A stretch of 64,000 nt of DNA from Chimonanthus salicifolius. Taxonomy: Eukaryota; Streptophyta; Magnoliopsida; Laurales; Calycanthaceae. The position numbers were made by a program, and so were the translations under genes. The stretch spans positions 38,922,631 through 38,986,630 of the forward strand of contig CM023539.1 of NCBI GenBank assembly GCA_013350335.1, written 5' to 3'. Positions 4,319 to 56,612 of the stretch are shown here, piece by piece; positions within the stretch are counted from its first letter, which is position 1; each line of letters starts with the position of its first letter. A model generated the notes under the pieces. It searched no databases. It was not told the DNA's origin and saw only the letters and a list, made by a program, of their open reading frames with translations.

Positions 4319-5020
4319 TTTATGATCATTTTGAAGGGGTACAGGGCTTTCAAATGTTTCATTGAATTCTTATGTCCAAGAATACATAGATTCAATGTTT
4401 AAATCTTGAAAATAAGGCATCTTAGCAAATTGGATTCTAAAAAGGCTTTTGATATGGTTGATTGGTCTTTATTCAATACTCTCTCCTTTTTTAGATGATA
4501 ACATAATTTGTTGAAAAAAGGGTACAAGGTGTGCACAAGATAAAGGACAAAGGCATAAATAGTTACAAAGTCAAATATTGAGGAAAATATATCCAAGGAC
4601 AAACCTAGAAAGCCACACACAAAAGAAGCGGACTTGATACATGGCCACTCTCTAGCCTCTCTCTCTCTCAAATGAACTTTTAGTTACTTAGAATAAGCAT
4701 TAATTGGTCATGAATGTAGACTTACTCTACGTGCTGGTCGGACTGATTGGCCTACTAAAATGGGTTGAACCTTGGCCTAGATTTTAGTTTTATTTATTGT
4801 TATGCTTTACACAATAACTCACTTTTAGCTCACTTTATGATGTATGGTCTTACAATGCTGGGTGATGATTAGATTTGCTGTTGACCTCATCTCTCACCTT
4901 GTTACTTGGTTGAGAGCACGGGAATATGAACATGTTTTTGGTTACCTTAGTTTATCTTTTTGGTTATTCTTCAATTGTGCCTTGAGGTTTATTACTAATT
5001 TTGTAATCTTATCTCAACAG

Positions 5021-5218
5021 GGTGAATTTAATTCTGGTAAGTCTACCGTCATCAATGCTCTACTTGGGAGGAGGTACCTCAAAGAAGGAGTTGTTCCTAC
5101 AACTAATGAAATCACTTTGTTATGCTATTCTGAGATGGATTCGAGTGGGCAGCAACGTTGTGAAAGACATCCTGATGGGCAATTTATTTGCTACTTGCCA
5201 GCACCTATCCTTAAAGAA
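5021..5218 (+). CDS. FZL: FZL exon 1 of the window: P-loop (G1) and G2
   Basis: 66 codons, phase 0 at both ends. Acceptor CTCAACAG ends at 5020; donor GTTAGT starts at 5219. It begins with [16 protein letters not shown], a GxxxxGKST nucleotide-binding loop, followed by VVPTTNEIT with the switch threonine. It ends with LPAPILKE. The preceding exon is not in the window, so the upstream intron is over 5 kb. Confidence 0.95.
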
Positions 5219-8200
5219 GTTAGTTCCATCATAACTTTAAAGGCCCTCATCCATGTGTATGTTTAGTGCTCTTGTTAATTTATGAAGGCCATTTATCACA
5301 TAGAAATTTGATTGAATCATTAGAAGAGTAAAAAAAAAAGAATAATATGAGATATACATTGTAGGCATCCCAAATACTCAAGGCACTGGTCATGGTCTGA
5401 AAGATATTTTAGAGGTGCATGAAGGCCCATTTATAGGCCAGGGCCGTAACAGCTCCTATGAGATCCTAACGTCATGGCACACTCAATTATCTCTTAACCT
5501 AGCTATGTTAGGCTTTTCAACCATTGCTATGCTCTCCATATATATTGTATGCCCCCTATTTGTAGCTATTGACTATGGTGCACAACTTTCATTGTTCACT
5601 CATCATTTGTGAATTGATGGATTTATCATTGAAGGTGGTACTGCATATCCAACTATTCAATACAGCAATTTATTAGATTGAGCCCTTGGACACCTTTATG
5701 CAATCTTATCTCAATTGGGCATGTATAGTTTTGGGTTGTGTATTATTGATGATACCATAAGCTCGTAAGGGCATCCCCAAGATTTGCATATTAACTGATG
5801 CAGGCTTCACACCCAGTAATGGGGTGATACCATGAGCTCGTAATTTCAGATATGGAAATATTTTATTTTTCATTGGCCTCAGCTGGATTTGTGATACTTG
5901 GCTTATGCTCCATGCTTTTGGTTATAAATTTTTGCTAACAAGAAATAGCAGAAGCAGATTGGATTGCAATTCGTATGCAATAGTTTTCAAAATAAGTATT
6001 TAAGTGACTTCGGCTGTGGCTTAGCAATATATTACATTTCAATTCTTGTCCTTTAATAAACTAGCATTATGAATTGCCAATGGTCATTCACATGTTTTCT
6101 GGCTCCAAGTGGATGGGACAAGGCTTTGTTGACTGTTTTCATTTCTTTCAATGATGGACATAAGTTGTATCCCTTAAAAAAAAAGTAAGTTCTCTGTGTT
6201 CTTTCCATGAAACAGATGAACCTCGTTGACACACCAGGAACAAATGTGATTCTGCATAGGCAACAACGCCTTACTGAAGAGTTTGTGCCCCGTGCGGATT
6301 TGCTTCTTTTTGTCATTTCTGCAGATCGCCCTTTAACGGAAAGTGAGGTATATGAGCTGCACTTTACCTCTGATTGACAGAGTATCCTGTATGCTACTGT
6401 GTCATGAATATTGTAGTATTAGTAATGATGCTATCTAATCATTCAGAAGGAAAAGTAATGGTGTCGTTGACCATTTTTTGTCATTTCCTCTACCAATGAA
6501 GTTCACAGTGGCATGCTCTTAGAACCTTGTTAGTTTATAATTTCTTATTGAATTTGATTTTTGAATATATTTTAGAAGATTGAAGGTGTTAAACTTTTAT
6601 TTTCATTCAGCTAAAAAACAGAAAGTAACATAAGAAAAGATGAGGATGTGAAGAGTTTTTTTTTAATTGTGAGGAGATTAGATATTGATAATTTGTTTGT
6701 TGGTAAGATTCTATAGTTAATAAAATGCCAAATACTCATACTAATGCACTCTCCCTAATGTTGCATTGTAGACATCGATCATGCTTAGCTTGCCTAACAA
6801 GTAACAACTCGTCTATGATATTGCCTCCTAGAGCTTTCATGGATGGCTCTTCTAGTGTATCTTCTAACCTAACACACATTGGATAAATGAAGTGTCTATC
6901 TTCTCTCCAATGAGGTCATAGTTAACTTTGATATGTTTGGTTCTCTTACTAAAATAGGATTTTGAATAATATATGTTGCTTTTGGATTATTCACATGTAG
7001 TCCTATATGAATTTCACATCAACTACCAAGTCCGTTTTCAAGTTTTTGTCTTCATATCTTGCCAGCACTGTGAAACCATGCCACATCTATTCTACCTCAA
7101 TACTTGATCTGCCTTAACATTTTATTTCTCATGTCTGCATGTCACCATGTATTCTCCCACAAAGGTCTAGTATTTGAATATCGACTTCCTACTATATAAT
7201 GGCCAACCCAGTTGGCATCAGTAAACAGATACATCCAAATGCCTATGTTTTGAATTAAAGTAAACATTTCCTACAGATCATCTTGAGTACCTTAGATTTT
7301 TATTGGTTGCCTCTAAAGCAAGAGGTGATTGCATGAATTCATCTTCATAGCCACTAATTCGATCTATCCAAGGTTAGCTTTTTGAGTTCTACTTTTCTAT
7401 TCTACATAGCAAAAGGCATACCCTTACTTACTGTACAATCCATCATGTCTATCTTTATCCTTCAATCCAGGTTTTTTAATGGGCTTCCTTTCGTCTTTGT
7501 TATTTCTACTTGTAACCGTTCAATTTTTCATTGAAAGGTTTTTTCTAGTCTTCTATGCACGTGCCTGAACCATCTCAAATGCTTTCCCTCATTTCCATCT
7601 ATGGAGCTATTTTAAATTCTTTTTGATGCGGTCATCCAATTTTATCCTTTTAGTATTGCTCTCACTCATGATCTTACGACATGTATCTCTTTACCATTGC
7701 TTTGTTTACTTGTCTTTTCTTTATTATCCAGCACTAACTCTTTATATAATTAACGGCCTAATATCTGTTTTATAGAATCACCCTTTCAATCGATATGGCA
7801 CTCTTTAATCACATTATACCCTCTAGCTTGCTTGCACTTAGCTCAACTACTTATGTCTTATTGGTTATATCCAAATTTGATCCTCCATTTGGTTTGGCAA
7901 TTGCACTAATTATCTAAATTTGTCACAGTTTGATATCAATTCATTTCCAATTTTATAAGGTTCCTCTTTATTTTTGTCACTGAAGTTTCACTCCATGTGT
8001 TTTATGATGACAGAAGAGGGTTTTATGACTACTTAAACCATCAACATGAATAGAGGTTTTAGACTCGAGATCCTTGGATCTGAATCTAGGATTCTGAAAT
8101 GAAATCTTGGATATCCAATTCTCACTTTCACTCGAGAAAGGAAGAGATATTTCTAATTTCAATAGGACAAAATTCACCGAAGAAATTAGGTGTTCTAATA

Positions 8201-11200
8201 ATTCAATTCGAATGAGGAATTGGGAATCCGAATGTTGAATTCCAATGCACTTAATTAAATGCAATTAAGAAATTAACATATGTATGAATTCAAATCCGGC
8301 TCGAATTTGGATTGGAAACCAAAGAACTTTCTAATGAATCAATTTGAATGTGGAATTAAAATTTAATCGAGTAATTGAAACATACAGACATGAACACATT
8401 AAAAATTCATCATGCAACATTCAATAAGTAGATTAAAATTTAATTCAAACACAAATTCAAATAAGATCTAAAAGAAACCCAATAAAGAGACTCACCAAAT
8501 TTGCAAACTCAACAAGGAAGCAATGCTTAGAATTCAACTCAAATTTTTTTTTTCTTTGTATACAATGCTTGGCCGAACCATGAATTTATAGGCTCTAAAC
8601 AACATAAAGAAAAAAGGAAATAAATGCAAAAAATCCAAGCAAATTCGTGCTGGGCCTGCATGCCCAGATTTTGTCTGAATTGGGCCGGTTTCTAAATGGG
8701 TCCTTTTTACATAATTATTGGACTAAAAAAGAGACAGATTTTAAAATTATAAATAACCTGTATAAGATCTTGGTTGAGTACTGTGGACATCACAGCCTGT
8801 CCGGTCTCTTACCTTGCAAAAAATTCTTAAAATCCAGCCCAGTTTCGGTCCCAGCTCAGGCCTGCACGCTCAGATTCTGCAGGAATTAGGTCCATCTTCA
8901 GTTCTCACGTCTCTACAGTTTGCAGAGGATTTCAGCCACCAATTCAGCAGTGATTTTAGCCTCTTTTATTGGGGGTCTTGCTGAATATATCAGCACCATA
9001 GGTCGACCCATTCCATTATCAAAATTGCAATGCACGTGCAAGGAAACCTTCCATTATGGGTTTTCAATTTTGACCTGCAATATCCCGCCCATAGGGTGCC
9101 AAAGTCCCATATTGCTAGTTGCGTTGAAAATTCCCTAGTATATAAGTGGTGCCCTTCCTCCTTCTAACACAATGCCTTTTGAGAGCAACAGTGAATTGAC
9201 TCACCAAAACAAAGCCGTGTGGGCCCAAAGTGGACAATATTGTCTAGCGGTACGGATCGTTACAAATGGTATCAGAGCATGGTTCAACTCTCTACCTGAG
9301 AGTGTGGGCTTGGTTGTTGTGTGTGTAGAGCCGGGGACGGCTCTGGCTTTAAGGGGGTAGGTTGCAATACCCCGCCCATAGGGTGCCAAAGTCCCACATT
9401 GATAGTTGCGTTGAAAATTCCCTAGTATATAAGTGGTGCCCTTCCTCCTTCTAGCACAAGGCCTTTTGGGAGCAATAGTGAGTTGGCTCACCAAAACAAA
9501 GCCGTGTGGGTCCGTGTGTGGGCCCCAAGCGGACAATATTGTGCTAGTGGGACGGGTCGTTACACGACCACAAACAAGCCCACGAATACATGTCCTTAGT
9601 GATGCTGTTTTTTGAGTGCGTTCCTTGCCAAATTGGCATCCGTGGGGTCCACTTAGATAGTAGCTGATGTGGATTTCGAGTGGGTCCAGATGGAAACCAA
9701 ACGGGTTTGGTTTCTTGGGCATTTGGGCCCAAAATGTCTCTCAAATGGGCCGAGGCCCATGGATGATTAAATGGGCTTTAATCCATGTACAAGTGGGTCC
9801 ATTAAGATGCTCTAGAGACCCTCTCTTCCATCCATCAACTCTAGGTTCAATTTGGGTAAAAAATAAATTCATATGGGCCCCATTTTCGTCTAATGGACTT
9901 TCCACAATTTCACCCGATTCAAATGGGCGTTGGCCGATCATTTTATCTATGTTATGCTAATTTTTAGACCATCCATCTCTAAACTTTCCTCCATAAATCC
10001 AATTTCTTGTTTAATTAATTGCATAAATTGATTAACCATGTATATATTTTTTGAAAAGGGAATGAGAATACTTTTAATAAACTAACAAAACAGAGATGAA
10101 GACTAAGTGACCAAGATGGACACGAGAACAAAATCTTATGACAAATGAAAATAAAGAAAGAAAACGGTTAGAAGAAACCAAAAAGCACAATCAAAGTAGA
10201 GATGATTCAAAGAATGAATCACATCTAGTTTCTCCATGCTTTGCCAAAAAGTGTGCCACACCATTAGCTGACTATGAACATGAACAAAAGAAACATCCTA
10301 GGATAGGCATAGGTGTTTAATCTTCATAAACAGTATAATCATCTTCCACAGTAGGTTTTTTCCCTGAGACTAACTATATTAACCGGTTTAGAACCCACTA
10401 TGCACAATTTACCAGTTGTCCCTTGAAGCATAAACCCATTGGTATAGAAACTAGAAACTTTCTGAAGGTCTCCACGTGGAGTGTATTTATAAGGTCTCCA
10501 GTTGATGCAAAGAGCTATCCTTTTTTAGTGAGAGAATTTTAATTGGATTTGTTGGCACCAAAAGTTTTGCACATTGCTTCAAGAACACATAATTTAGATA
10601 TCTATAAGCTGCATCCAACAAGCTAAAGATCTTAAAAGATCCATGCAAGATCATGAAGATCCAAACTCTATGAACTCTAACCATGTCAATCTAATGTCAA
10701 CATTGTCCGGTCATGGCAATCTGATACTCATACAAATTGATTGAGTGAAGATCCAACAAGCTCCATGATGATTGGGACCTAAAGTTCAGTCAATCAAAAA
10801 GAAGACATCCATAATGCCAGAATGTCTAAAAGGATGATCTATGACATATCCAAGGTTCGAGGGATGTTAAAAACAAAAAAATCGTTGATTAGATGAGTGG
10901 ATCCAAAGATATAATAGGGGCCCACCTATGATCAGACTTGAGAGAAACTTGATGATCCTTTGATTACCTTCCAAACACAACTTACAGAGCGCCAATTGGA
11001 TACATAGATCAAAAAATACAAGATGCGGCTCACTCATGATGATTGTACGATCATGACTTGGGAATCACTTAGGAGATTCTTCTGTTGTCTTCCAAACACA
11101 ATTTACGGATCGTATATTAGATACATGGATCAAAAGATAAAAGATGCGGCCACTCTTGGTGATCATAGATCATGACTTGGGATCCACTTGGGAGATCCTT

Positions 11201-14200
11201 CAATTACTCTCCAAAAACATCTTAAAGATCAATCAGATATTATGGATCAAAAGATACAAGGTGTTGTCCACCAATCATCACACTATCATTTGTTGGACAT
11301 CATTTTATATTAGCTTCCTAATGCAACTTATGGATCTCAAATCTAAGTTTGGATTAAAAAGGGAGGTAAAAAAACTTGATCAGATATGATAATAAACTTG
11401 CTAAAAGTGTGGGAGTGGAGGAGTAAGGATCTCGATCACATAAGATACATTAAGGATGAAAACTAGATGATCTCAGTTAAAGACAACGACATAAAGAGTA
11501 GGTGGGAGACTTTTAATGATCTTTTGAATACCGTATATGAAAGCGAAGTTTATATGGAAGGAGTGGCCAATGAGGGGGATGGTGAAGTAAACCTAGCCTT
11601 AAAAAAGATGAAGAAGCGTAGAGTGCTAGGACCGAATGGTATCCTTATTGAGTTTTGGATTGTGCTAGGTGAAATTGGAGTGCATTGATTGACCCGATTA
11701 ATCAACAAAATTTTATTCTAAAAAAGAATGCCTAATGAGTGATGCAAAAGTACAATGGTTCCTTTCTATAAGAACAAAGGAAAAGTTCAAAGTTGCACAA
11801 ATTATCGTGTGATTTTAAACTCGTTAGTCACATTGTGAAACTTTGGGAGAGGGTAATAGGAAGCTCGTTTAAGATTTGAGCCAAGTGTCTCTAAAAATCA
11901 ATTTGGATTTATGCTAGGTAAGTGGACAATAGAACCCATCTTTCTAATTAGACAACTCAGAGAGAAATCGAGGGAGAAATGGAGAACCTATTTATGGTGT
12001 TTATCGACCTAAAAAGACTTACGACAAATTCCAAGGAAATTGATATGGAGAACATTATGAAATAAATGTATTCCCAAATAATATATCGAGATTATTAAGG
12101 ATATTTATGATGGCGCAACCACCAATGTTAGAAACGCTTGTGGAGAGCAGGTGGAGTTCCTAGTAGGAGCGGGTCTCTATCTAGGATCTACATTAGCTCG
12201 CACCCATTTGTGTTAATCATAGAAAACTTAGCATTAGAAATTGAAGATAAAGTGCTATGTTGTATGCTTTTTGTAGATGATATATTATTAATTAGTGAGA
12301 CAAAGCAACAACTCAATATTAAGTTGGAGTATTGGAGGAAAACTTTTGAGGCGGTTTGGTCATGTAATTCGAAGACGTGAGATGAGAGGTTACATGTTTT
12401 AGGTACAAGGAGAAGGAGTAGACTACTTAAAATGTGAAGGGAAGGAATAAAAAAAACACATGATAGATAGTGGAGTGACTGACTATATGGTGTATGATAG
12501 GGTCAAATATAGAAGTAGAACTCGAAAAGTTGACCCCAGATAGATGAGATTTTAGCTTTTGATGATGATGATCCAAAGAATCGAATCTATTGGTAACTGA
12601 GGTTCCAAGCACATTATATAGCAAGTATTGTATACACACAAGCATACATCTAAGAATAATAATTTTTAATTAAGCATTACTGACAATTACTTCATGTTAA
12701 CTATAATACTTACTAAATATTACAAAATTATAAAAATAGGCATATTATAGAAAAACTTTCTTAAAAAAAAACCTAGGTAAGTGCCTAGGTGCAAAATTGG
12801 TTAGGCAACTTGGAAAACTAGGCATGCTTTTGACTACTATGTTGATCTCCATATACTTCTCTTTTCATGCTTTTTGATTTCTGTGTACTAGTGATGTAGG
12901 ACACGACCCGAACCTGATTCACGTGTGGACCCCACTTTTTTTTTTTTATTTAGCAAGTTTGTTTAGAATTCTTATTTAGTTAGTTTCCTATTTAATTTAG
13001 ATTTCCTGATGTAATTAGGATTCTTGATAGGTTTCTTTGGTTTTTATATAAGGTGGCTAATAGAGAGGAACACAACTCTCATATATGATGGAATAAGAAA
13101 AAATTCAGAAGTTTGTTTTATCTCTTTTTTTTCCTTTCTTTCTCTCATGCCGTGAGTTGCAGGCTTGTTCGTTCTTCTCCCGGTCTCGACGAAGACTCAG
13201 GATCCCTATTTTGCTGGGTCTCTCTGCCGATAGCATTGATCCCGCATCAAGTGGTATCCAGAGTAGATTCTCTGCGTGATAGAGACGATTTTGTTCAAGG
13301 TATTTTTTTTGAAAAAAAAAAGAAGCCAAAGCCTGGGCGTTATCCCTAGCATGCTTCTTTTGCAAACGGCTTCACAAACCTTTTATCCTTTCTCAGTTAC
13401 CCTCCCACCCTCCCTTTGAAAAAAAAGGGTTCCGAAAAAAATCCATTATTGCTGTTCTCCTTGCCTCAAGCCGTTCGCTAGATCTGTAGGAACGACACAT
13501 GTCACTCCTCTAGTGTTGCCTGAGCGCACTTGATCTGTTGGAGACGTCTCTCGGCCTGATAATGCTATCCTACCTCGCAGAAACAGAGCCCAATCGTCTC
13601 TGTGTCTCTGTTGTCCATCGCACGTCCAGGAGCTTGCCATCTCTAGCCCAATTTTCTCTCCCTCCTCTCCCTTCCTGCGCTCACCTCGCCTGACTCCATC
13701 GCTTCCGCCAAATTGCCCTTACCCCATTCGTCCCTGTTCCACCAATCCAAAGCCTCCAATTTCTCGAACAAGCCCTGCACAATTTCACAGCCTCCCTCCC
13801 TTTTGTTGGCCAGTCCGTGTCTCTGCACTCTTCACCATCGTTCCTTTCTTTTGCATATTTTATCAATACCCACATTTATATCAACTAGCCATTTAACCCA
13901 AACACTCATCTGTGTCCCTTCCATTCTCAACACCTTTATTTAATGCCCATCTCCCATCAACTCTACATCATATTCCATTAAATGCCCACCTCTCTCTCCA
14001 AATCCCTCCACTTCTTTTTCACTATTCCCAAATGAACACTACCTCACATGAGCCCCATTTGACCAGCTTGACCACTTTTGACCGAACCTATCTCCATGTC
14101 TTACCGTTGGTCCCAACCTCACCCACCCATTAAGCCATTTACCCAGTCCTACTACCACTCATTTAATCCCATCACCTATCCATTGAACCAATTTAATGAG

Positions 14201-16646
14201 ACCTTTAACTCCCAATTGGTTCCTTTCTATTCCCATTCATCTGAGTCACCCAGTTATTTCCAAACTCCGAACCAATCCAACCGCTGCGTCTTGGACTCTG
14301 TGGGCAACCCGATATGATGAGTCGTATGTCACAAGACTTGTGTGCAACCATTTTATATCTACTGATCCCCATCTTGTCCCTGGATCTGATTGCCCACTAC
14401 ATCACATTGACTCGATGGCATCCCACAATGATGACGAGTTCAAAGAAATCCGATCTAGCCTTGAGAAGGTGAAAGATATGCTTCTCAAGTTCGTTGAATC
14501 CAGGCGCAATGCGGAATATAGAGACATGATAGTGAACAATACATCTAAACGTTCCCATCCATCAGGACCTGTGTCAACATTCAAGTGCATTTTGCAGACC
14601 CCTTCGCAACTAGATTGATTCATGTGAGCTTGAGCTCGTGTATGGTCTTTGCTCCGTTCGTCCCGCAGATGGTTCACTCTTGTCGTTCGTGCCCTGATCA
14701 TTGCACAATTGCCAGCTTTGTCATTCGGCTCTACGGAATTGGTCTCCACCTCTGTTGGGTACCTTGTTGAGTTCTTTTATTTTTATTTAGCAAGTTTATT
14801 TAGAATTCTTATTTAGTTTGTTTCCTATTTAATTTAGATTTCATGATGTAATTAGGATTCTTGATAGGTTTCTTTGGTTTTTATACAAGGTGGCCTTGTA
14901 ATAGAGAAGAACACAACTCTCATACACAATGGAATAAGAAAAAAATCAGAAGTTTGTTTTATCTATCTTTTTTTTTTTCTTTCTTTCTCTCCTGCCGTGA
15001 GCTGCAGGCTTGTTCGTTCTTCTCCCAGTCTCGATGAAGACTCGGGATCCTTATTTTGCTGGGTCGCTCTGCCGATAGTATCAACCCCACATCAATTAGA
15101 GTCTTTTCAAAAGTTCTTGTATAATGCTTGAAGAAATTTAGCTGCAGACAACTAAGAAAAAAAAATTAACACTTTACTTTTTAATTTTGTTTTTGGGTGG
15201 GTGACTGGGTGGTTGGGGGGCTTGGTTTGGAAAACAGAGGACAATAGTCAACAATTTAAGACAAAGTTACCAATGTCATGAAGTTTGCATTGACGCATAG
15301 TCATGTGTCATTATAATAGGAAGATAATTAGGATTATCTTTTTCAAGAGAATCACATGTTTGTTGGTCAATAAAAACCTCAGTTTGAACTTCTTTTTCCA
15401 ATGTCTTGTGCCTTTAAGTTTGATCATTCCATCTAAACCAGCTTACGTAGTGATCTCAGAAACCTGTTGACCAATAGGAGCAATAGAAAACATAACAATA
15501 GAAAGCATTTGCTGAATCTGATTGCTCTGTTCTTCTGCATAGATCCCCCATGACGAGTAATATACTTCCCATTAATGAGAAATATGGTTTGAACTTAAAG
15601 TGACACTCATAGTAAAAAGTCCATTGAAATGAATGGCTGATATGGAAATGCAGGCAGGCGTAATCCCTTAATCAGAAATGAAGTTGTTTTCAAATGGCAT
15701 TTATATATCATTTATAATTGATTCCCACTAGTGATGGTTGTCACAAATTGACCATTACTTGTGGTTCTCATGAGAAGCAGCATCCTTCAGTCAGTATGCC
15801 CTATGAAGGAGAGATCTCTTCCTCTGGATACTACGATATAATGCAAACAATCTAATGGAATAGAATGATAAATGATGAAGATTAATGATCTGTAATTTTT
15901 TTTTTTGAAAGGTAAGGTTAATATCCATTTTCCTTGTATTTTTTAGTATATGGATAACAATCCTATTCTAGACAGGGTTTACATTGATTTTATTTGACAA
16001 GTATACCTAAGAAGCAATGATTGTCTACCTCAGAATGGAATGGAAACAATGACTGTCTATTATGGTAGCATATTACCCGGTTTGAGATCGTGCTTGTAAT
16101 GTCTTACATTGGTCCCAATTAATATGAACCTATAAACTTTATCTTCTAAAGGATTTGAATATTTTATTTTGCATTCATTTCATTAGAGCTCCTATTTTCT
16201 TATTTTTGATAGGCTTCATCTTGATTTTATCTGACATATTGCTATTGTTAATCAAAGTGAACATTATTTTCAAGATGATCATTTTGTGAGACGGTAATTT
16301 TTGTTGTTTAACTAAATCACCCGAGTCTTGGCTATGAAAATGTTTCTCTAGTGGTTATTTTTAACTCTCTCCTTTTACTTAAAAAAGTATAGACTATGAA
16401 CTCTTTCTCTCTCTCTCTTCCCCATCAAGGCTGAATCAAATCTAGACTCATCCTTCATTCTGATTCTTTCAGGTTGCTTTTCTTCGTTATATTCAGCAGT
16501 GGAAAAAGAGGGTTGTGTTCGTTTTGAATAAATCTGATCTCTATCAGAATGACTTTGAGGTTTTGTTCTGCATTTTCAAGTGCCATGCCTGTTGATATCT
16601 TTAAATGTCTCCTCTTACCAACACACACACACACACCCCTCGTGTA

Positions 16647-19600: not shown

Positions 19601-22600
19601 GATCAACTGTACCTGGGTTTGTGATGAAGGAGAACCAAATCTGTTCACAGCGAACAGAGGGGAATCGTGTGGCAGTGGCGGAAGTGACGACAATGGTGAC
19701 TTGGGATAAGGCCCAAGCAACTTGCAGTGGTGGTATCTCTTGGGATGAGGCCCAAGATCTGTAGATGTAGAGGTCTGGAACTGGCCAGATGGAGATTCGT
19801 CTGCAACTTGGGCAGAAATAGAGGAGATAAACAATAAACAACTGGTAATCTTTTTATTCAATTCATAATATCGAAAATGTGTCTATCTCTCTCTTACATC
19901 TATCGTATTTATAAGAAAACAAAGAGATAAAAATAGAAAAAGACTCCTAAACAAACTAGGAAAGCTACGAAAGTGGTTTCCCGACTCTAGCACAACTTCT
20001 AATATTATTTGGACTCCTAAACCAAACTATGAAAGCCACGGACCTGGCATTCTTACAAGGACTCCAAAAATAAAATACTAAAATACGAAAATACTAAAAA
20101 GAGTTGTATCCGTGTCCTACATCACTTTCCCCCACCTCCTTAATAGCATGTTTTTTTATTTTATTTTTTATTGGAGATACAATCTCAGGAAAAAAAAAAA
20201 AAAACAATGAAGGCTCACTTTTGAACCATTTATTCTACCAAAATAAATATTGGCTCCTTCTCCCACCAAAAACTCCATATGATCTTTAATCTTGGAACCA
20301 GCCCCATGATCCAGCTCATCAAATTTTGAGATTTCTTTCCAAATCCGAGAATTGCCTCTTTTAGAGTCTCTAGTCTTTAATTTTATGACTTCTCTCAGCT
20401 TCCCTCTCCTCATTGAATCTCCACCATAGTTTGGATTATGAAAAGGAATGGATAATAGACAAGAATGTTGATTGGAGTAGATTTAATGAGGACAATAGGA
20501 CCACCAAAGAAGTGAAAGATTTTTTCTTGGGCACTAGTTTTTTACGGAATCGTTCAATAACTAGCCGCCCCCCACCCCTCTATCAGCTAAGCACTGCAAT
20601 TTGTTTTGGAACAAGAATGCCTACAATATACTATGAATGTTCAGTTTGAGGCTGGAAATTATTTTGAAGCATTCAAGAACCCTGAAAATGTTGAGGAACT
20701 GATTGTTATCATCTTTGTTGAAAACAATCATGTCGGCAAAATGCATGTGGGAATTGGATAAGTGGGAAATAGTTATCTGGAATCCCTCTATGAGACTTTC
20801 ATACTCTGCTTTTTGAAAAAAAGCCACAAAGACCTTCCATATCTAAGGAGAAAAGGATTGCGGATAGAGCATCCCCCTGCTTAGGACTGACTTCTTATCA
20901 ATACTCATTGCTTACATTATTTGGTTATTTGGTAACTTAAATAGCAATTGCATTCTGTTCAGGAACGTGGGGGTGGATTGAGGGCTGGACTAGTGGATTC
21001 AAGAGGAGTTTAACATCTCAATTTTTTTTGAAAGATATTAACATCTCAATTTTGAAAACTATATTAGGCAAGTACATAGAGTGATGAAGTCCCATTTTAA
21101 GGAGGAATACAATGGAGACAAATGGAATTTTTATCGAACATGGTGTACAATGTGCATTGGTTGGGTAGGATACAGGAACTAAAAATTGTGAAAATATTTC
21201 AAGTTCAATTTGCTAGACCAAAAACAGTTCGAAAGACGACAGTACCCCATAAATGGAAGCTTTTTGTCAAAGAGCTACACCATATAGAATCCTAACGCAA
21301 GTTATTGAAAACGTCTTCATTCCTAATGTGTATTTTCATTTTCTTTGGTGGACTAATGAGTACTTCATTGATTAATGTTGTAAGATAAAGTGTACATACA
21401 GTTTTTGTGTAGGGTGCAAGAGAGTTGACCTTAGATTGATCACTTGTGCTAATTAGTGCTGATTGATATTACATTTAATTTTTTTGGGTTCTCCATGATT
21501 TACTCTTTGTATTCTATTTATTCTTGTAATTCATGTGAGGAATATATAGAACAATTTCTCCTCAGAATTTTTTTTTCTTCCCTCAGTTGTTATTGGGATA
21601 TCTTGCGGAAAATACCTCCAAAGTTGCGAATGCGGATCAGTTCCCCTTCAGAAATTGAAATTGGATCAGGGTGCCTTATATGCCTGGTTAGACTTTTTTT
21701 GGATTAAATTGCCCACAGCGGGCGATAGCTTTTTCTTCTATAAATATATTTATAGTCTAAAGAAATACTAGCGCGGGTGCTAGCTTTTTCTTCTATAAAT
21801 ATATATATAATCTAAAGAAGACATGGAAGCTATTGTAGTTTAGTGATAAAGATACTTGTTTCTTATGTAAGTGGCCTGGGTTCAAAACTTGGAGATGACT
21901 ATTTTCTTTCATTTTACCCTATTGTTCATTTGTCATAGCTCGACCTAAATAAACAGGCTTGGACAAAGATTTTTTGTTCCACGAGTCAGGCTCGGGCTTT
22001 TAAGCTTGTTTATTTTTTTAAGCCCAAGCACAATTAAGTATGAGAGCCCAACAAGCTTTTAAGCCCAACGTGCTTGAGCATAAAGCATAAACAGGCTTAA
22101 AAGCTTGAACCTGATTCTTCGATTAAAAAATCTTTGTTGAAGCTTGTTTATTTAGGTTGGAGTTGGGCTCAGGCTTTTACTTAAAACCCGTTGAGCTTGT
22201 ACTTAACTGTACTTAGGCTTAAACAATAAATGGGGCTTAAAATCCCTAGCTCGACTCGTCGAAGAAAAAATCTTTGTCCAAGCCCTTTGTATAGGTCAGG
22301 ACTGGGCTCGGGCTTTTATTTAAAGCCGGTTAAGTAAAAGCCCGTTGAGGCTCGTTTGGCTCGTACTTATTGTACTTGGGCTTAAAAATAATCGGGCTTA
22401 AAAGCTCAAGCCTGGCCTGACGAAGAAACAATATTTGTCCAAGCCTGTTTGTTTAGGTCGAGGTTGGGCTCGGCCTTTTACTTAAAGCTCGCTGAGGTTC
22501 GTTGGGCTCGTACTTAACTATGCTTGGGCTTAGAAAAATAAATGGCTTAAAAGCCCGAGCCCGACGAACAAAAATCTTTGTCCGAGCCCGTTTATGTAGG

Positions 22601-25600
22601 ATGGGCTGGGACAAATGAACACCTCTTAATTATTACTCATTTTTTTCAAAAAAAAAATATTGAAAAGAGGATGAAAAAAAAAAATAGTCATCACCAGGAT
22701 TTGAATCCAAATCACTTACATGAGAAACAAATATCTTTACCACTAGATTACAATAGCTTCCATGCCTTCTTTAGACTATAAATAATATTTATAAAAGAAA
22801 AAACTAACACCGGCGTTGGCTAATCTATCACCTGGGCTAGCGTTGACACTGGTAAATCTAGCGCGTGCGCTTATAAAACCAACGCGGGCAGTCACAACTG
22901 TCATCCGTGCAATCCTCTTCAAAATGGGGGTAATTTAGTCCAAAAAAGTCTGACTAGGCGTACGAGACACCCTAACCCAATTTCAATTTTAAAGGCATAC
23001 TGACCCAAATTCACAAGGTATTTTCTGCAAAATATCCCTTTGTTTTTCTTTTTTATTTTATTTTTTCTATCATGTCTACAACGTGGTATTTAGAAGTGAA
23101 CAAGATCTGGGAGTTTTCCTTCAACTGACAACCTTTTTGAGGTTCTGGCCTTCTTCATTCCTCTATCTTCTTTTGTCTACAATTGTTTGTACCAGATTGG
23201 AGGTCAGTAATTTTATTTAAGGGAAGAAAAATAAAAAAGTTTTTTTTACCAAACTAGAAAGTTTGAACTACAATATCAAGAGGGTTCTTTGGCTGATCTG
23301 TGTGGAAACCCCACAAAGCCCAATCACAATTTGCTTTTGGATCTATCTATACAGCCCTCAATCTGTTTTGGAATTTGTGGGGCCCCCTTGGATCTCTCCT
23401 TTCTGCTGTCTGCATGTGACGCCAGAATACCTTGGATTGGAATTTTTTTTTTTTTGTTCCTTAGAGCTAGATCTGGTTTCTAGGGGTTGGATCTGTAGTA
23501 TACAACATTCTAGCAATTATTTCTTCATTATAAAGAATGATTTTATTGTTTCCCCTTGACTGGCTCTATGATGATAACAATTTCTGATTTGACACTCCCA
23601 TCTGGATGATTGGGGGTTCAATCAAACCTTTATGGACAAACCCCTTTTGATGTAACCGCACTAGTGCGATCACCACTACTCTTCTCAATGAGACCAATTA
23701 TGTGCAGTAGTCTCATTATGCCCTCGTGTTTATTGACGCAAAGAAAATTTGGATTTTATAGGTGCCAGCTTCCTATCTAAAGGGATGCAAAATGTAACCA
23801 ATGATTGTCATTCTACTTCAGGATATTGCATTTTCTTTGGTGATCACCTTGTCTCCTAGTGTGACAAGAAGCGAAATGCACTAAGTGCAGCAGAATTGAC
23901 CTTAGATTGATGAGTTGTGCCAATTGGTGTTGATTGATTCTACATTGTAATTTTTTCTTTTTTGTTCTCCATGATTATCTCTTTGTATTCTATTTATTCT
24001 TGTGAATTGATGTGAGGAATGCACAGAACATTTTCACCCTCAAAAAGGTTACTTTCCCTCAATCCATTCACTATAAGTTCTTCAGTGTTTTTTTATTTCT
24101 TTCTTCTTCTTCTTCTCATGGAGCTATTCCAAGAACTGCTCTCATGGATTGATGGAGGGATAACTCTTTCAATTGGAAAGGATCATGCCTTGTGGAAAAT
24201 TGTGCCACATTGCCATTAGGATGGGAAACTTGGAAGGAAAGGAATAGTCATAACAAAAAATTGTTCTTTGGTGCCATAGGGAGCCTATTGGAGAAAGAAT
24301 TTAATGGAATTGGACATGGGACTTGTAAAGAAATTAAAGATGTGTTATTCAGTTATAAAAATAGATTTGAAGTAGTAGGGAGTATGGAGGAGAAGTAGAG
24401 ATCAGATTGTATTTATGTGTTTTGTAGATGTTTCTTTTCTTTGGTTGTTCACTAACTTCATGTTCTTTTGAAATTCTGTTTGTATGGTGTCTTTATTATT
24501 ATTAAAATTAATTGCTACTCTCTCTCTCTCTCTCTCTACCCCCTCTCTCCCCGGAGAGGCTTGTATTGTTTCTTACATTGCACTGCAGTTCTACTATCAG
24601 GGGAAGGCAACCCTCATTGTCCTCAAACTACTAAAAGGTCCTAAAATGATTTAAGCATGGTTTTACATTAGTTAGTTATAATATCATTTTTTCTTGCAGA
24701 TTTCTGATAGTTTTAGAGCTCTGATGTCACCTAAATGCTTTGATGCCCCTTTGGAATGTCAACCACCAATTTGATGCTAAGATGATACAACCCATGCTGA
24801 TTTTATGACAAATCTAGGACCTAAAAAATCAAAACCCTTGGTTGATGATCCAATAATCTCAACACAATATCACACATATGTTTTGCACCAAGTGAAGAAG
24901 ATACACTTGTCATGTTGGGTAGGATTCACGCCTAATGGCTTTCTTAACCAATGCGCAAACCTACAATTATCAACTTCAACATTCGAAATAACTTTGAAAA
25001 AGTTCACAACTAACACAACTTGTTAACTTACCTAGGAGCATGAAGAGGACAAGAAGCATGAAATCATACTCAAGCATTAGCTATGATCACATATACAAGC
25101 TAGAAAAGGTTATGCCTAAGACTTTTCAAAAGCTCTTTTAATTGATTAATAGAAAATAACATAGAATAGAATGGTCCATGTGATGGGGTATTCAACCCTA
25201 TTTATTTGTTACTAAATCTTTGAGCAGTTCCAATTCAACTCCCATTCAGAATCCTACTTATTTTCTTCAAAGTTCCAACTACCAAGCATGACATTTCTGG
25301 AGGAATTAACTTGCTAATTATGGTTTCATGAGTCTAGTAGGAAGAACTTCTTTCTCAATTATTGAAGGTTACCCAAATCTTGCAACTCTAGTTTACCTAC
25401 TAAAAATGTTCCATAACAATTGAATGAACTTGGGGTTGTAGGAAAGCTAACCAACCTATGGAACACACTTGATATCATCAAGTGGCACCATTACTCAACC
25501 AACACTAAGGGCATACAATCTAACCTAGACGGAATGATGCAATCCATGATTGGGCCCACTTCCCACTTTTACAACTAGTGGTATCGACAAAAACTCTGTG

Positions 25601-31600: not shown

Positions 31601-34423
31601 AAGGTTGTGTTAATGCGCCCAATGTGGTTTTTGCGAGCATACTTATTGTTTCCATGAATAAACTGAACGCTCACATTTTGATGTAGGTCAAGCTGGTAGC
31701 TCCGGTCCACACTTGCACTACAGTTGAAACCAAATTAAACCTTAGACTCTGATAAGGCTTAAATGGTTTGTTTGAAGTTTGACTTAATAGATACTAGTGA
31801 GGTTAACAAACTCAATTTGAATGCAAATCCAAAAAACAACCAATGATTATCATGATTTGAAATTAACTTTACTGCCCGTTTGACTCAAAAATCAAATAAG
31901 AATTTAAACCAAGACTTGAGATGGTTGTATGCGGGATAGCACCAAACCAAAATCAAATTTAATTCGTGAACTTGAAGTAGTTATTTGCTATTAATACATA
32001 TCCCAAATCAAGTTAATATGGGCCGAATTTTGGACTGCAAAATTTGATAAGAAATTCAACACGGATCTGTTACTTAACCGAATTTGGACATATGGATTAC
32101 TTGCAATCAAACAAAGTTTATTACAAACATAAACTAGTACAAATCAAGACTGACTTGATATAACACCAAGTCCAACTATTGGACTTCAAGTCTTCATAGT
32201 CTTCACACAAGATTTCAATCTCACACACACAATTACATGCTGCTCTTCAATGTTGGCAAGCATTGGTATTTATAGACTACAAATGTTAACTACCTAAAAC
32301 TACTAATTTGAAATCCATCCATCCATCACCAACGCCCTTTGGATCTAATGGCTGAAATTGAATGTGCAAAAACTACCAATAACCATCATTTTTAATCCAT
32401 CCGTCCATCAGCAGCTTCTTCTCAATCCAATGGTTGAAATTTAAATCTCCAACAACTCCCAATAACCACCAATGGTCAAATTTGAATTTGATTTCCAATA
32501 ATCACCAACGGTTAAATTTAAATTTGAATTCCAACTACCAATGCTAGGTGGCAATCCAAGTGTGCTTGAATCCAGCAATGGATTTGTGCAATGTGGATTG
32601 GATGGTTGTGGATCCTCCAACCATCAGCAGCTTCTTCTCAATCCAATGGTTGAAATTTAAATCTCCAACAACTCCCAATAACCACCAATGGTCAAATTTG
32701 AATTTGATTTCCAATAACCACCAACGGTTAAATTTAAATTTGAATTCCAACTACCAATGCTAGGTAGCAATCCAAGTGTGCTTGAATCCACCAATGGATT
32801 TGTGCAATGTGGATTGGATGGTTGTGGATCCTCCAATGAAATCACGCCAAGTGGATTGTTGGTTGCTTGGCTTCTCCAATGAAAACATGCCAAGTGGATT
32901 GTTGGTTGCTTGGCTCTTCCAATGAGATCATGCCATGTGGATTGAATGGTTATTTGGTTCCTCCAATGAAGAGACACCACATCTTTTGGACGCCTCCAAT
33001 GAGAACATGCCAAGTGGCTAGGTCAAATGGCACACAACACATGTGCTACTCTCCATTGGAAACATGCCAAGTGGCTAGGTCAAATGTCACACAACATATG
33101 TGCTATTCTCCAAGGGAAACATGCCAAGTGGCTAGATCACATGTCATCACTAGTAGGTGTGCAAGTTAGCAAAGGATGGTTTCAACTTGGCAGCTTAATT
33201 TGGACAGCCACCCCTTATCCCAGCTTGCTCGAACTGGTCGTAGTAACCTCGTCTGCCCCGTCCAATGGTGAACTAGTGTGTGAAACTGTGAGTTGGTCCG
33301 GATGTCCTCATCACATTTGTTTCCCCTCCAATGCAATTTTAAAATCTTTAGCTCCTCCAAGGGTAGAGGCATTTGATTGAATAGTAGCTTCTGAGAAAAT
33401 CTTGGCTTGCATAACCTTAGAACCATTTATTTAATATTCCTAATGTTTGTTTTCTTCATTGGTGCTTTGAGGACTCCATTGATCATTTATTCATCCATTG
33501 CCCAGTCTCATATCTTTTATGGATGGCGTTGTCTTCCATGTTCAGTTTTTATGGGACCTATCCCTAGTTCTTTCTGGTCTCTCCTTAATGTATGGGAACA
33601 TTGACCCATTAGCAAGAAAGATAATGTATTACAAAAAACTTTGTCATTAGCAATAGCTTGTGAAGTGCAGAAAGAATGCAATAGAAGAATTTCATGGGAG
33701 TCTAGACATGAGCTGTCTTGTGAATTCATGTGATTAATGCTAGATTGTTGCAAAATGATGATCCACGTGCTCATTCAGAACGCATGCAAAATGATATCTG
33801 GCATCAATATTCATCCATTAATCTAATGTCAACATGTATGACATGTGATATCTGTGACTGCTGTTCCTCTTTTGCATTTGTTGCTGTTTCATCATTTCTG
33901 TATATATCATCAACGAAATTTGGAATCATATTCTTTTGATTGCCGTTAACCTAGTTTGCTCCATGTGGACGGTAAAAGCATCTCTGAATTAAGTTTATTT
34001 GATTTGTGGAATTCCAGTTTATGTCTGACCAAGACCACTTGCATAAATGGAGACATACCCATGTGCATACTTAATCTAGTTTTCTTGAACAATTTAGTTT
34101 CATTTTATGGAGAGCTAATGGCATTCTGTGTTTTCAATAGTTTTTTGGCAATCTCAAATTTCCCAACCCGTCGAAAGGAAGTGGCAGACAAGGTGAAAAG
34201 GGCTGCACTTGCCTTGGAGCGTGAGCTCAAAGAAGCCATGCACAATGATCTCTTGCAGACACTCAAGAATCTAGAAGGCGTGGTTGAACTCCTAGCAAGG
34301 CCTTATCAGGACGCAGCACAACATAGACTTAACAGGATGCTGGAGATTCAAGAGGAGTTGTCAAATGTTGAGAGAAAGCTGCGATCGTTGCAGGTTGAAA
34401 TCCAAAACCTTCACATTGCTTGA
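5021..34423 (+). CDS. FZL: FZL, chloroplast dynamin-like GTPase (3' portion, 8 exons)
   Basis: Exons 5021-5218, 6216-6347, 16473-16559, 17295-17735, 17922-18089, 27627-27857, 29485-29600 and 34141-34423 all have AG acceptors and GT donors and join in one frame to 551 codons plus TGA. The product matches plant FZL (FZO-like), a dynamin/mitofusin-related GTPase of thylakoid and envelope membranes needed for normal thylakoid architecture. G1 is [10 protein letters not shown]2 lies in PTTNEIT, G3 is DTPG and G4 is NKSD. A helical stalk follows, then a glycine/alanine/leucine-rich hydrophobic stretch encoded by exons 7-8, then a charged coiled coil ending NLHIA. Arabidopsis FZL is about 900 residues, so the transit peptide and roughly the first 40% lie upstream of the window. 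The first seven visible introns' junctions are phase 0 except the last, which is phase 2. Introns hold mostly transposons. No frame break is seen, so the gene is probably functional. Confidence 0.95.
6216..6347 (+). CDS. FZL: FZL exon 2: G3 motif
   Basis: 44 codons, phase 0. The acceptor is GAAACAG; the exon starts at an ATG that is internal ([10 protein letters not shown]), not a start codon. It carries the G3 DTPG motif and [18 protein letters not shown], and ends PLTESE before donor GTATAT. Confidence 0.95.
6740..7330 (-). mobile_element. Ty1-copia RNase H relic
   Basis: Minus-strand reading near 7260-7190 gives HLDVSVYTDANWVG, the copia segment that opens the RNase H domain. Near 6960-6860 it gives [17 protein letters not shown], the conserved RTKHIE-D-H-FI-EK block, and near 6800 [11 protein letters not shown]. 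Stops and shifts interrupt it. It is distinct from the copia piece at the left edge of the window. Confidence 0.85.
7440..7720 (-). mobile_element. RTE-type LINE relic, C-terminal end
   Basis: Minus-strand reading around 7590-7540 gives [15 protein letters not shown]. The string LRWFGHVxRR is the hallmark of the C-terminal region of plant RTE-clade LINEs. The rest is too decayed to place. Confidence 0.7.
7975..9960 (-). mobile_element. LTR-like retroelement fragment hosting a TRIM
   Basis: On the minus strand a GGGCCC-rich stretch is followed by a TATA box (TATAAATTC, 8591-8583) and then a long AT-rich leader without clear genes, the layout of U3, promoter and R/U5-leader of a retroelement. 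Ends are not defined. The complete TRIM at 9076-9564 lies within it. An old host promoter region is the alternative. Confidence 0.45.
9076..9564 (+). mobile_element. Complete TRIM retroelement (489 bp)
   Basis: Two LTRs, 9076-9264 and 9363-9564, start TGCAATA-CCCGCCCATAG and end CGTTACA. The 98-bp internal part begins with a primer-binding site TGGTATCAGAGC (9267-9278), complementary to the 3' end of initiator tRNA-Met, and ends with the purine tract AAGGGGGTAGG. Each LTR holds GTCCCAYATTG and a TATATAAGTGG box. Flanks TGACC and CGACC are a 5-bp target duplication with one change. No coding capacity, as expected for terminal-repeat retrotransposons in miniature. Confidence 0.92.
10040..10420 (-). 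mobile_element. LINE 3' relic with RNase H-like end
   Basis: Minus-strand reading near 10290-10220 gives [14 protein letters not shown], matching the last block of LINE-encoded RNase H (usual form REANxVAHxLAK). It continues toward a 3' end that reads TTATTAAAAGTATTCTC before a short A-rich tail. Stops are present. Confidence 0.65.
10920..11290. repeat. Tandem repeat, about three units of ~120 bp
   Basis: Recurrent blocks such as CTTCCAAACACAA (10967, 11089, degenerate at 11209), GATCATGACTTGGGA and ATGGATCAAAAGATA recur every 120-122 bp. Units are diverged. No coding sense was found. Confidence 0.75.
11460..12540 (+). mobile_element. RTE-type LINE reverse-transcriptase relic
   Basis: Plus-strand frames give the reverse-transcriptase blocks in order: [13 protein letters not shown] (11615-11655), [11 protein letters not shown] (11758-11790), NQFGFMLGK (11900), [20 protein letters not shown] (12110-12170), and [17 protein letters not shown] (12262-12312) with the catalytic VDD. 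The order and the TNVRxxCG block fit the RTE clade. Many stops and shifts. Confidence 0.88.
12892..15094 (+). mobile_element. Non-autonomous LTR retrotransposon (2.2 kb)
   Basis: LTRs at 12892-13249 and about 14774-15094 are highly alike, both with GATGTAATTAGGATTC, a TATA region, and CTGCCGATAG near the end. The left LTR opens TGATGTAGGA and closes GCATCA, followed at 13252 by TGGTATCCAGAG, a degenerate tRNA-Met primer site. The right LTR lacks its first ~50 bp. Flanks ACTAG (12887-12891) and ATTAG (15095-15099) suit a 5-bp duplication with one change. Internal sequence has no pol; frame 14415-14618 ([20 protein letters not shown]) may be a gag start. Confidence 0.88.
16473..16559 (+). CDS. 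FZL: FZL exon 3: G4 motif
   Basis: 29 codons, phase 0, acceptor TTTCAG, reading [20 protein letters not shown] then SDLYQNDFE, so it carries the G4 NKSD base-specificity motif. The donor is GTTTTG, a weak splice donor compared with the others in this gene. Confidence 0.93.
16615..16835 (-). mobile_element. tRNA-derived SINE with CA-repeat tail
   Basis: On the minus strand 16813-16737 resembles a tRNA-derived head: A-box-like TAGCGCAGTTGGCTTGAGC and B-box-like GGTTTGACTCT at the expected spacing. It is followed by a compound (TG)n tract on that strand, seen on plus as (CA/AC)n blocks at 16619-16712 broken twice by CCCTCGTGTATC. The repeat is probably the expanded SINE tail. It begins about 60 bp past the exon 3 donor of FZL. 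Confidence 0.65.
17295..17735 (+). CDS. FZL: FZL exon 4: end of G domain and stalk start
   Basis: 147 codons, phase 0, acceptor TTGTAG, donor GTACTA. Begins [16 protein letters not shown], includes [14 protein letters not shown] (G5 region) and then the helical segment [19 protein letters not shown] to WRKQMSSL. Match to plant FZL is continuous. Confidence 0.95.
17922..18089 (+). CDS. FZL: FZL exon 5: stalk
   Basis: 56 codons, phase 0, acceptor CTTGCAG, strong donor GTAAGT. Reads [11 protein letters not shown] through [20 protein letters not shown] to NPALSDLN, part of the helical bundle after the G domain. Confidence 0.95.
18188..18214. repeat. Perfect 10-bp stem hairpin
   Basis: TGCACCATGA and TCATGGTGCA are perfect reverse complements separated by 7 bases. 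It lies in an intron just upstream of a T-rich run. No element ends were found around it. Confidence 0.7.
19320..20124 (-). mobile_element. LTR-like fragment
   Basis: On the minus strand it begins TGATGTAGGACACGG at 20124, the same opening as the LTR at 12892 (TGATGTAGGACACGA), and has a TATA-like CTTATAAATACG followed by AATAAAAAG. Toward 19450 it becomes a purine/pyrimidine-biased leader (poly-GA on plus). The left end and a target duplication could not be fixed, so it may be a solo LTR or an LTR with a leader. Confidence 0.55.
20195..20925 (-). mobile_element. LINE reverse-transcriptase relic
   Basis: Minus-strand frames read, from 20900 down, [10 protein letters not shown], then [25 protein letters not shown] (a decayed FADD box) and [14 protein letters not shown], the standard order of L1-type reverse transcriptase. 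Near 20400-20230 there is [19 protein letters not shown], matching the VGxGxxxxFW region further downstream. FADM in place of FADD shows loss of a catalytic residue. Confidence 0.82.
21595..23038. mobile_element. Mutator-like inverted-repeat element with tRNA-like arms
   Basis: A 1,444-bp element whose ends read GGGATATCTTGCGGAAAATA at the left and GGGATATTTTGCAGAAAATA on the opposite strand at the right. The arms stay alignable for over 300 bp and, with inner subrepeats, for about 460 bp. Each arm carries a tRNA-like segment (left 21826-21896, right 22689-22755). The centre is a run of ~140-160 bp subrepeats, the first inverted relative to the rest. Flanking 9-mers GTTGTTATT and TTTGTTTTT agree at 7 of 9 positions, the duplication length of Mutator elements. 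No transposase. Confidence 0.8.
21940..22600. repeat. Inner subrepeat array of the Mutator-like element
   Basis: Units marked by TTTGTCCAAGCC-like starts at about 22131, 22270, 22433 and 22574 run on plus; 21940-22060 holds the same unit inverted. Each has GGGCTCGGGCTTTTA and GGGCTTAAAAGC-like palindromic parts. Confidence 0.8.
24140..24520 (+). mobile_element. LINE 3' end relic
   Basis: Frame at 24225-24290 reads [20 protein letters not shown], like the WxxWxERNxRIF block that follows the zinc-binding region at the C terminus of plant L1-type LINEs. It runs to a TTATTATTATTAAAATT end. No other domain remains. Confidence 0.55.
25600..25850 (+). mobile_element. LTR-like fragment
   Basis: Contains GTATTTATAGAAG (TATA-like) followed about 50 bp later by GTTAATAAAGAG (poly-A signal), an arrangement common in short plant LTRs, after T-rich sequence. 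No partner copy or ends were found. Confidence 0.35.
26220..26640 (+). mobile_element. LINE 3' end relic with poly-A
   Basis: An open frame at 26164-26484 ends [20 protein letters not shown] then QAWKECI, similar to the last residues of some plant LINE proteins. A T-rich 3' part ends ATTATTAATATAATC followed by an A8 run at 26629. Assignment rests on these weak resemblances. Confidence 0.45.
26740..27420 (+). mobile_element. LTR/leader-like fragment
   Basis: A TATA box (TATAAAT, 26866-26872) is followed by an AT-rich non-coding leader dense in AATTAATT, much like the minus-strand sequence at 7975-8600. No primer site or ends were identified. It lies about 200 bp upstream of FZL exon 6. Confidence 0.4.
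27627..27857 (+). CDS. FZL: FZL exon 6: stalk
   Basis: 77 codons, phase 0, acceptor TTTCAG, donor GTGAGT. Starts [18 protein letters not shown], contains [19 protein letters not shown] and ends FEQELREV. Continuous with the preceding exon in the plant FZL alignment. Confidence 0.95.
27858..29484 (+). other. FZL: FZL intron of 1,627 bp, no feature seen
   Basis: GTGAGT to TTTTAG. AT-rich; no transposon motif, tandem repeat or RNA gene was recognised in it. Confidence 0.85.
29485..29600 (+). CDS. FZL: FZL exon 7: hydrophobic membrane segment
   Basis: 116 bp, phase 0 in and phase 2 out; acceptor TTTTAG, donor GTACAG. Reads [18 protein letters not shown] then [20 protein letters not shown]. With the first residues of the next exon it forms the paired hydrophobic segments that anchor FZL in chloroplast membranes. 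Confidence 0.95.
30180..31680 (+). mobile_element. L1-type LINE relic, reverse-transcriptase part
   Basis: Frames in order: [11 protein letters not shown] (30220-30255), a VNGSPKGSF equivalent (30360-30390), an SPFLFVVV equivalent near 30420-30445, [15 protein letters not shown] (30510-30555; FVDN replaces FADD), then a decayed connection region. The 3' part of the same LINE seems to resume at about 33200 beyond an LTR-like insertion. It lies in the last FZL intron. Confidence 0.82.
32405..32836. repeat. Tandem duplication, two 216-bp units
   Basis: 32405-32620 and 32621-32836 are nearly identical (both open CCATCAGCAGCTTCTTCTCA). They lie in what would be the U3 part of the LTR-like insertion. 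Confidence 0.93.
32829..33150. repeat. Minisatellite with ACATGCCAAGTGG core
   Basis: About seven units of roughly 45-62 bp share CTCCAATGARAWCATGCCA and AGTGG. Two subtypes occur: an early one with GATTGTTGGTTGCTTGG and a later one with GCTAGGTCAAATG. It directly follows the 216-bp duplication. Confidence 0.85.
33200..33800 (+). mobile_element. LINE zinc-binding 3' part
   Basis: Frames read [13 protein letters not shown], stop, [10 protein letters not shown] (33340-33412), then [20 protein letters not shown] followed by CP (33440-33503), the CxxC-x-HLFxHC zinc-binding block of plant LINE reverse transcriptases, then LLWMALSS. It is the likely continuation of the LINE at 30180-31680. Confidence 0.82.
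34141..34423 (+). CDS. FZL: FZL last exon: membrane segment end and coiled coil
   Basis: Acceptor TTCAATAG ends at 34140. The first base completes a glycine codon, then [18 protein letters not shown], a long charged helix ([38 protein letters not shown]) and the end [11 protein letters not shown] before TGA at 34421. This is the C-terminal coiled coil typical of FZL. Confidence 0.96.
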
Positions 34424-56452: not shown

Positions 56453-56612
56453 ATTTTTTTTTTAAATTTACGTGTAGGAAAACTCAGACACAGTTCTATT
56501 AAAACTCTTATAGGTGAGCCCACTATCCCTAGGGCATACCAAGGTTAGGCTATGGGGCTCGAACCCGCAACCTCCCTCTTTCTGAGGGGGGATGCAACCA
56601 GTTGAGCTATAC
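56453..56612 (-). mobile_element. tRNA-derived SINE (family A), minus strand
   Basis: Minus strand: A box ATAGCTCAACTGGTTGCATC, B box GGGTTCGAGCCCC, body CCTTGGTATGCCCTAGGGAT, end CTACACGTAAATTTA plus an A run (T run on plus near 56453-56463). Confidence 0.88.

Follow-up and report, generated by a model that had tools for sequence, protein, structure and literature searches.

Within a 64,000-nt stretch of the Chimonanthus salicifolius genome (GCA_013350335.1, contig CM023539.1, positions 38,922,631 to 38,986,630 of the forward strand; hereafter "the window," with positions counted from its first letter), our analysis points to a hairpin of jumping DNA. This decayed, transposon-like palindrome of 1.4 kb has in either arm the likely worn remains of a whole transfer RNA (tRNA) gene. 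The explanation that we favor, with moderate confidence, is that this palindrome is a dead, non-autonomous, Mutator/foldback-like terminal inverted repeat (TIR) transposon that sits within an FZL-like gene, in one of its introns, and holds a captured tRNA gene in both arms. Much of what a preliminary description had reported of the element's architecture stands, while its proposals on transcription and origin are revised here.

A Non-coding Palindrome with Long Inverted Arms

The palindrome (21595–23038; assigned to neither strand) is real, as both an inverted-repeat search and an alignment of its arms recovered the GGGATAT ends and long arms that had been described previously. It is non-coding, measures 1444 bp and is delineated by its inverted repeats, arm identity, RNA fold, and an open reading frame (ORF) scan. 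The GGGATAT termini at 21595 and 23038 head a 23-bp terminal inverted repeat (21595–21617 on the plus strand, 23016–23038 on the minus strand) whose two copies are 91% complementary. Further inward, the left arm (21595–21960, plus strand) equals the reverse complement of the right arm (22580–23038, minus strand) at 289/356 aligned bases, or 81%. By left-arm segment, identity between the arms is 20/22 aligned bases at the terminus, 68/86 at positions 24–117, 53/72 at positions 118–190, and 40/44 in an AT-rich stretch (positions 191–234) that stands before the tRNA-like block; the block segment itself agrees at 60/72 bases, and the sequence inward of it at 48/60. Only in the left arm does the AT-rich stretch occur as a tandem pair (21718–21819, plus strand), with a period of 55 bp and 47-nt copies at 21718–21764 and 21773–21819 (91%). 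When folded as RNA, the element reaches −654.8 kcal/mol vs. a mean of −358.6 kcal/mol (standard deviation 10.4) for 40 dinucleotide shuffles (z = −28.4), and 273 of the 366 left-arm bases pair with the right arm.

No further copies of the arms or core were found in the window; two 20–25 nt matches (E = 0.006), to the part of the right arm with A/T runs, were dropped as low complexity. Eleven ORFs of at least 45 amino acids were listed around the element, and in the 10 that were scanned we found neither a Pfam match above cut-off nor a MURA-type transposase; a protein search with a 76-amino-acid ORF that runs across the core and the right block returned no candidate. Exact DNA patterns for the block, the upstream junction, and the TIR had no match in viral contigs, the two block patterns had none in bacterial genome contigs, and a blastn search for distant relatives of the element had none among plasmids—all collections in which plant DNA is not expected. 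The viral contigs also yielded no relative of another ORF from the window.

Probable Worn Remains of a tRNA Gene in Each Arm

Under the Rfam tRNA model (RF00005, gathering score 29), the right block (22686–22757, minus strand; CTC at the anticodon position) scores 31.6 bits and is the one place in the 64-kb window where any Rfam family reaches its gathering score (E = 0.012 for the whole window over all families), and the left block (21829–21900, plus strand; CTT at the anticodon position) scores 25.4 bits. ARAGORN reports no tRNA at its default; at -ps95 it reports exactly two matches in the window, both of them blocks of the element, and none in 300 dinucleotide shuffles of the element (0/300). 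Looser settings yield a third window match (56543–56615) at -ps90, where 1/300 shuffles also match, eight window matches at -ps85 (29/300 shuffles), and a match in 125/300 shuffles at -ps80. Because the default finds none, -ps95 finds only these two, and no shuffle matches at that setting, the tRNA likeness of the blocks is real but worn, and the earlier observation of a tRNA-like segment in both arms is borne out. Counted by hand, the A and B boxes lie at approximately 21836–21847 and 21879–21889 in the left block (plus strand) and at approximately 22739–22750 and 22697–22707 in the right block (minus strand).

The sequence around the blocks has the outline of a tRNA gene as well. The word TATAAATA stands 35 bp upstream of the left block (21794–21801, plus strand) and 36 bp upstream of the right block (22786–22793, minus strand), and a T-run resembling a terminator of RNA polymerase III (Pol III) begins 1 nt past each block (T4 on the left, 21902–21905, plus strand; T11 on the right, 22674–22684, minus strand), with no T4 within the block. 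Of 127700 window positions, 6% have a T4 run within 5 nt, 0.2% have TATAAATA between −45 and −20, and 0.016% have both; the last two values apply to an exact TATA word that was picked after being seen. In plant tRNA genes the upstream 50 nt are AT-rich, and TATA is present in 22–32%, CAA in 78–82%, and poly(T) in 67–72% (PMC11700998). Upstream AT content is 76% for the left block, followed by 72% beyond 50 bp, and 80% for the right block, followed by 48%. Each block therefore comes with the four parts of a decayed tRNA gene (A box, B box, upstream TATA, downstream poly(T)), and both look like decayed tRNA genes more than like a short interspersed nuclear element (SINE).

The manner in which the two blocks differ points the same way. 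They diverge at 12 of 72 sites, 10 of these being transitions. We compared the blocks with provisional sequences of 18 plant tRNAs; Glu-CUC scored best (45/72 bases identical on the right, 44/72 on the left), followed by Asp-GUC (41/72 on the right, 42/72 on the left). At 11 of the 12 differing sites one arm keeps the letter of this Glu-CUC sequence (the left five times, the right six), and at 10 of the 12 one arm keeps the letter of the Rfam consensus, which was not picked to fit; given two different letters per site, chance would produce such a match at about half. Two worn copies of a real tRNA should show just such counts, and because one arm so consistently keeps the tRNA letter, the common ancestor of the two blocks was probably more tRNA-like than either arm. 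Over the arms as a whole, transitions make up 45 of the 67 differences. By context, the C/T differences between the arms comprise 10 CG, 10 CHG, and 25 CHH sites, and the conserved C positions 10 CG, 12 CHG, and 71 CHH sites; CG and CHG are thus over-represented among the changed sites, as they would be in methylated, silent DNA.

The Core Array

Between the arms lies the subrepeat array with an inverted first unit that had been noted from the letters alone. It consists of one plus-strand unit, L1 (21939–22060), followed by four minus-strand units, R4 (22070–22160), R3 (22201–22300), R2 (22341–22464), and R1 (22496–22606), the subrepeats being ~160 bp long. L1 is 79–80% identical to each of R1–R4, which are mutually 68–77% identical. 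Because L1 is nearer to each R unit than the R units are to each other, the array is consistent with an L1-like unit having been copied repeatedly. Duplications beside the core ends, which would speak for a nested transposon, were sought by eye only, and none was seen. Weak Rfam matches to MIR7993 (21986–22116; 40.6 vs. a cut-off of 100) and MIR2606 (22019–22221; 33.7 vs. 139.7) also fall in the core and probably stem from its hairpin shape.

Flanks and Probable Kinship with Mutator Elements

TIR-type Mutator-like elements (TIR-MULEs) have been delineated by TIRs of 100–500 bp that are >75% identical and by target-site duplications of 8–11 bp, with up to two mismatches at 9 bp or more (PMC3903597). 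The arms lie within the length and identity limits whether one takes arm positions 1–117 (88/108 aligned bases identical) or the whole arm (289/356), and to this extent the Mutator-like affiliation proposed earlier is sustained. Its third support is less firm. The 9-bp flanks GTTGTTATT (21586–21594) and TTTGTTTTT (23039–23047), a weak, possible target-site duplication (assigned to neither strand), are equal at 7/9 positions, so that with two mismatches they just pass the rule; yet 98 of 825 local 9-mer pairs in this T-rich DNA pass too, and 816 of 20000 simulated pairs show the same agreement. Of the composite repeats with tandem units that characterize foldback elements, we find the 55-bp tandem pair, in the left arm only, and the array of ~160-bp core units. 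A literature search with five GGGATAT words for a published TIR match returned only papers unrelated by title. Taken together, kinship of the element with Mutator is probable, not proven.

A local duplication may offer a partial view of this site without the element. Just left of the palindrome, 21414–21561 shares 128 of 154 alignment columns (83%) with 23885–24038; the two form a 154-bp direct duplication, of which the second copy has no element. With small gaps, this likeness extends to 21585, which leaves 9 bp to the element; beyond the junction it goes on only in T-rich DNA. When the two flanks are joined without the element, they align to 23861–24240, but to the right of the junction only via T-rich DNA, and we do not count this alignment as proof; the right flank alone gives nothing better than E = 0.035, and that on the opposite strand.

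How the tRNA Gene May Have Come to Lie in Both Arms

Under the explanation that we favor, a nuclear tRNA gene, probably one for Glu (CUC) or Asp, would have been taken up by an ancestor of the element. The AT-rich stretch upstream of the gene, with its TATA word, and the T-run terminator would have come along, all within sequence that was a long arm already or later turned into one. Doubling of this arm, by palindrome formation or by copying of one end onto the other, would then have placed the gene in both arms, facing inward. Because the block sits at the matching place in both arms, it was either present before the arms separated or copied between them. Any movement would have depended on a transposase that another element supplied and that acted on the ends. 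The tRNA genes would have been passengers that may once have given short tRNA-like RNAs via Pol III, and would since have been worn, largely by transitions.

Several observations weigh against this explanation. The 9-bp duplication is weak, set as it is in T-rich flanks, and no second copy that would speak for transposition was found in the window or in the viral, bacterial, and plasmid collections. The left block falls below the Rfam gathering score, ARAGORN at default recognizes no intact tRNA gene, no CAA motif occurs within 50 bp upstream of either block, and the left arm remains AT-rich past 50 bp upstream, where its AT-rich stretch is duplicated. The isotype assignment rests on provisional sequences and is itself tentative, because the score leans to Glu-CUC while the left arm by z-score slightly favors Asp (8.2 vs. 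7.9 for Glu). Lastly, CHH sites account for 25 of the 45 C/T differences, so that the decay does not follow the CG/CHG methylation pattern alone.

Other explanations have to be set beside it. The preliminary description had proposed that either a SINE was captured before the palindrome formed or the element descends from a tRNA-like unit; the tRNA-related block itself is upheld, and the SINE is the part that fits less well. A SINE derived from a tRNA is expected to have an unrelated body after its tRNA head. Here the T-run follows directly on the block in each arm, so that no SINE body would fit ahead of the Pol III stop, and the upstream TATAAATA is common to both arms. Because the T-run is so placed and the TATA word stands at tRNA-gene distance, capture of a tRNA gene is the better explanation. 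Of the remaining SINE hallmarks (head, unrelated body and tail, flanking duplications), duplications around the block were sought by eye only. In our judgment it is consequently unlikely that a tRNA-derived SINE, with the block as its head, jumped into the arm prior to palindrome formation, even though a tRNA-like block with A and B boxes is present in both arms and SINE sequence is known from a DNA transposon, MER6 (PMC6887750). Two independent SINE insertions were considered and ruled out, since the homology of the arms runs on both sides of the blocks. Somewhat less probable again is that there is no end-to-end transposon here at all, and that an old inverted duplication of a single repeat unit (arm plus core unit) left outer ends that merely look like TIRs. 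It is true that the core units and arms are copies of repeats in either orientation, that the duplication in the flanks is weak, and that no other copy is known; however, the terminal 22 aligned bases are 91% conserved vs. 79% for the next 86 (22 being few bases), and the left flank resembles the element-free 23885–24038 up to 21585, the right side doing so only in T-rich DNA.

We consider it very improbable that the element is active now and affects its host gene, either through live, inward-facing Pol III promoters or as an intronic hairpin that is a source of small RNAs. The whole-gene outline of the blocks and the very strong RNA fold, with its extensive pairing between the arms, would suit such activity, as would the report that Mutator-type miniature inverted-repeat transposable elements (MITEs) are a major source of MITE-derived microRNAs in dicots (PMC10004981). 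On the other hand, A-box and B-box positions are among the 12 of 72 sites at which the blocks have diverged, the arms have decayed to 81% identity, and the microRNA-family matches in the core are far under their cut-offs. The probability that the tRNA likeness is a chance product of AT-rich DNA is next to negligible: default ARAGORN finds nothing and the Rfam E-value for the whole window and all families is 0.012, yet none of the 300 shuffles matches at -ps95, the only two matches in 64 kb at that setting lie at homologous places, and the tRNA letters lost in one arm are mostly kept in the other.

Host Gene, Transcription, and Other Repeats in the Window

The element appears to sit in an intron. 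A tblastn search with a provisional sequence of FZL, a chloroplast dynamin-related protein, gave eight exon-like matches that follow one another in order along the plus strand between 5021 and 34420; the element falls between the match that ends at 18083 and the one that starts at 27624. Independently of this query, Dynamin_N was found in the ORF at 4841–5263 (E = 7e-10). With the provisional protein as guide, these matches place the element in an intron of a putative FZL-like, dynamin-type plant gene. Beside the FZL exon, 5346–5609 matches plastid psaA/psaB (Pfam E = 4.5e-16) and is perhaps inserted plastid DNA.

This position bears on how a giant hairpin transcript, attributed earlier to Pol III promoters in the arms, might arise. 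Pol III is known to terminate at T-runs. Because the T-runs 1 nt past the blocks should stop it, we rejected synthesis of the giant hairpin by Pol III as unlikely; the blocks, if ever active, would have yielded roughly tRNA-sized RNA. Read-through by RNA polymerase II (Pol II) could plausibly make the giant hairpin instead, because the element lies in an intron.

Elsewhere in the window, a 112-bp tandem pair (3856–4090; 95% matches) includes TGGTATCAGAG, which presumably resembles the primer-binding site of a long terminal repeat (LTR) retrotransposon. Two direct repeats of ~315 bp (12938–13250 and 14775–15095), 90% identical and 1.5 kb apart, are possibly the LTRs of a small element. A 216-bp tandem pair (32405–32836; 98% matches) contains nested 36-bp repeats, and one repeat occurs as inverted copies far apart in the window (9101–9559 and 55556–55991), each locally duplicated as well.

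Significance and Comparison with Known Systems

In the available parts of the literature examined, discussions of how plant DNA transposons capture host DNA concern protein-coding genes. If our explanation is true, a tRNA gene in both arms would bring Pol III factors close to the very ends that a transposase acts on, and would give tRNA genes a DNA-only route along which to multiply and become pseudogenes. One could go further and suppose that a family of Mutator/foldback transposons exists here in which an inward-facing, tRNA-gene-derived Pol III unit is a regular part of both arms and is put to use—through TFIIIC at both ends keeping them open or insulated from silencing, or through tRNA-like RNAs, in addition to a Pol II read-through hairpin that feeds small RNAs. 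We hold this to be decidedly improbable, but such a family, if it exists, would make it possible to test directly whether a transposon evades silencing with the help of Pol III promoters. Among the matches listed in our literature search, no title or abstract start describes a tRNA gene in Mutator-like arms; subscription journals lie mostly outside its coverage, and this is weak evidence of absence.

The element nonetheless shares features with several known systems. Like the expanded tRNA-Lys genes of wheat, it joins tRNA genes to mobile repeats (PMC3989483, PMC6230948); on wheat chromosome 6B, Gypsy LTR elements or de novo repeats contain 83 of the 131 tRNA-Lys genes (PMC3989483), and capture of tRNA genes by transposable elements has been offered as speculation (PMC6230948). 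Inverted arms, as found here, are not described for the wheat case in the available parts of these papers. It resembles TIR-MULEs and Pack-MULEs in its long arms with >75% identity, in its cargo of host-type DNA, in the lack of a transposase, and, more weakly, in its 9-bp flank match with two mismatches. Pack elements are, however, described for coding DNA, whereas here the cargo is the relic of a tRNA gene in both arms; the word tRNA does not occur in the available main text of a gene-capture review (PMC13317346) or of a Pack-TYPE study (PMC8903248). The foldback Mutator elements Tm1 of root-knot nematodes and, as cited there, FARE of Arabidopsis have long composite inverted repeats with tandem units and include non-coding members (PMC3169594). 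Tm1 elements have mostly 9-bp duplications, and one Tm1 group bears a histone-hairpin RNA motif (PMC3169594); yet their tandem units are 13–15 bp long and the RNA motif lies between the repeats, whereas our core units are ~160 bp long and the RNA-gene relic lies in the arms. Finally, MER6, a Tc1/Mariner MITE, is a DNA transposon that took up and spread SINE sequence; it carries the SINE body and tail without the tRNA head (PMC6887750), while the palindrome described here carries only the tRNA part, and carries it twice.

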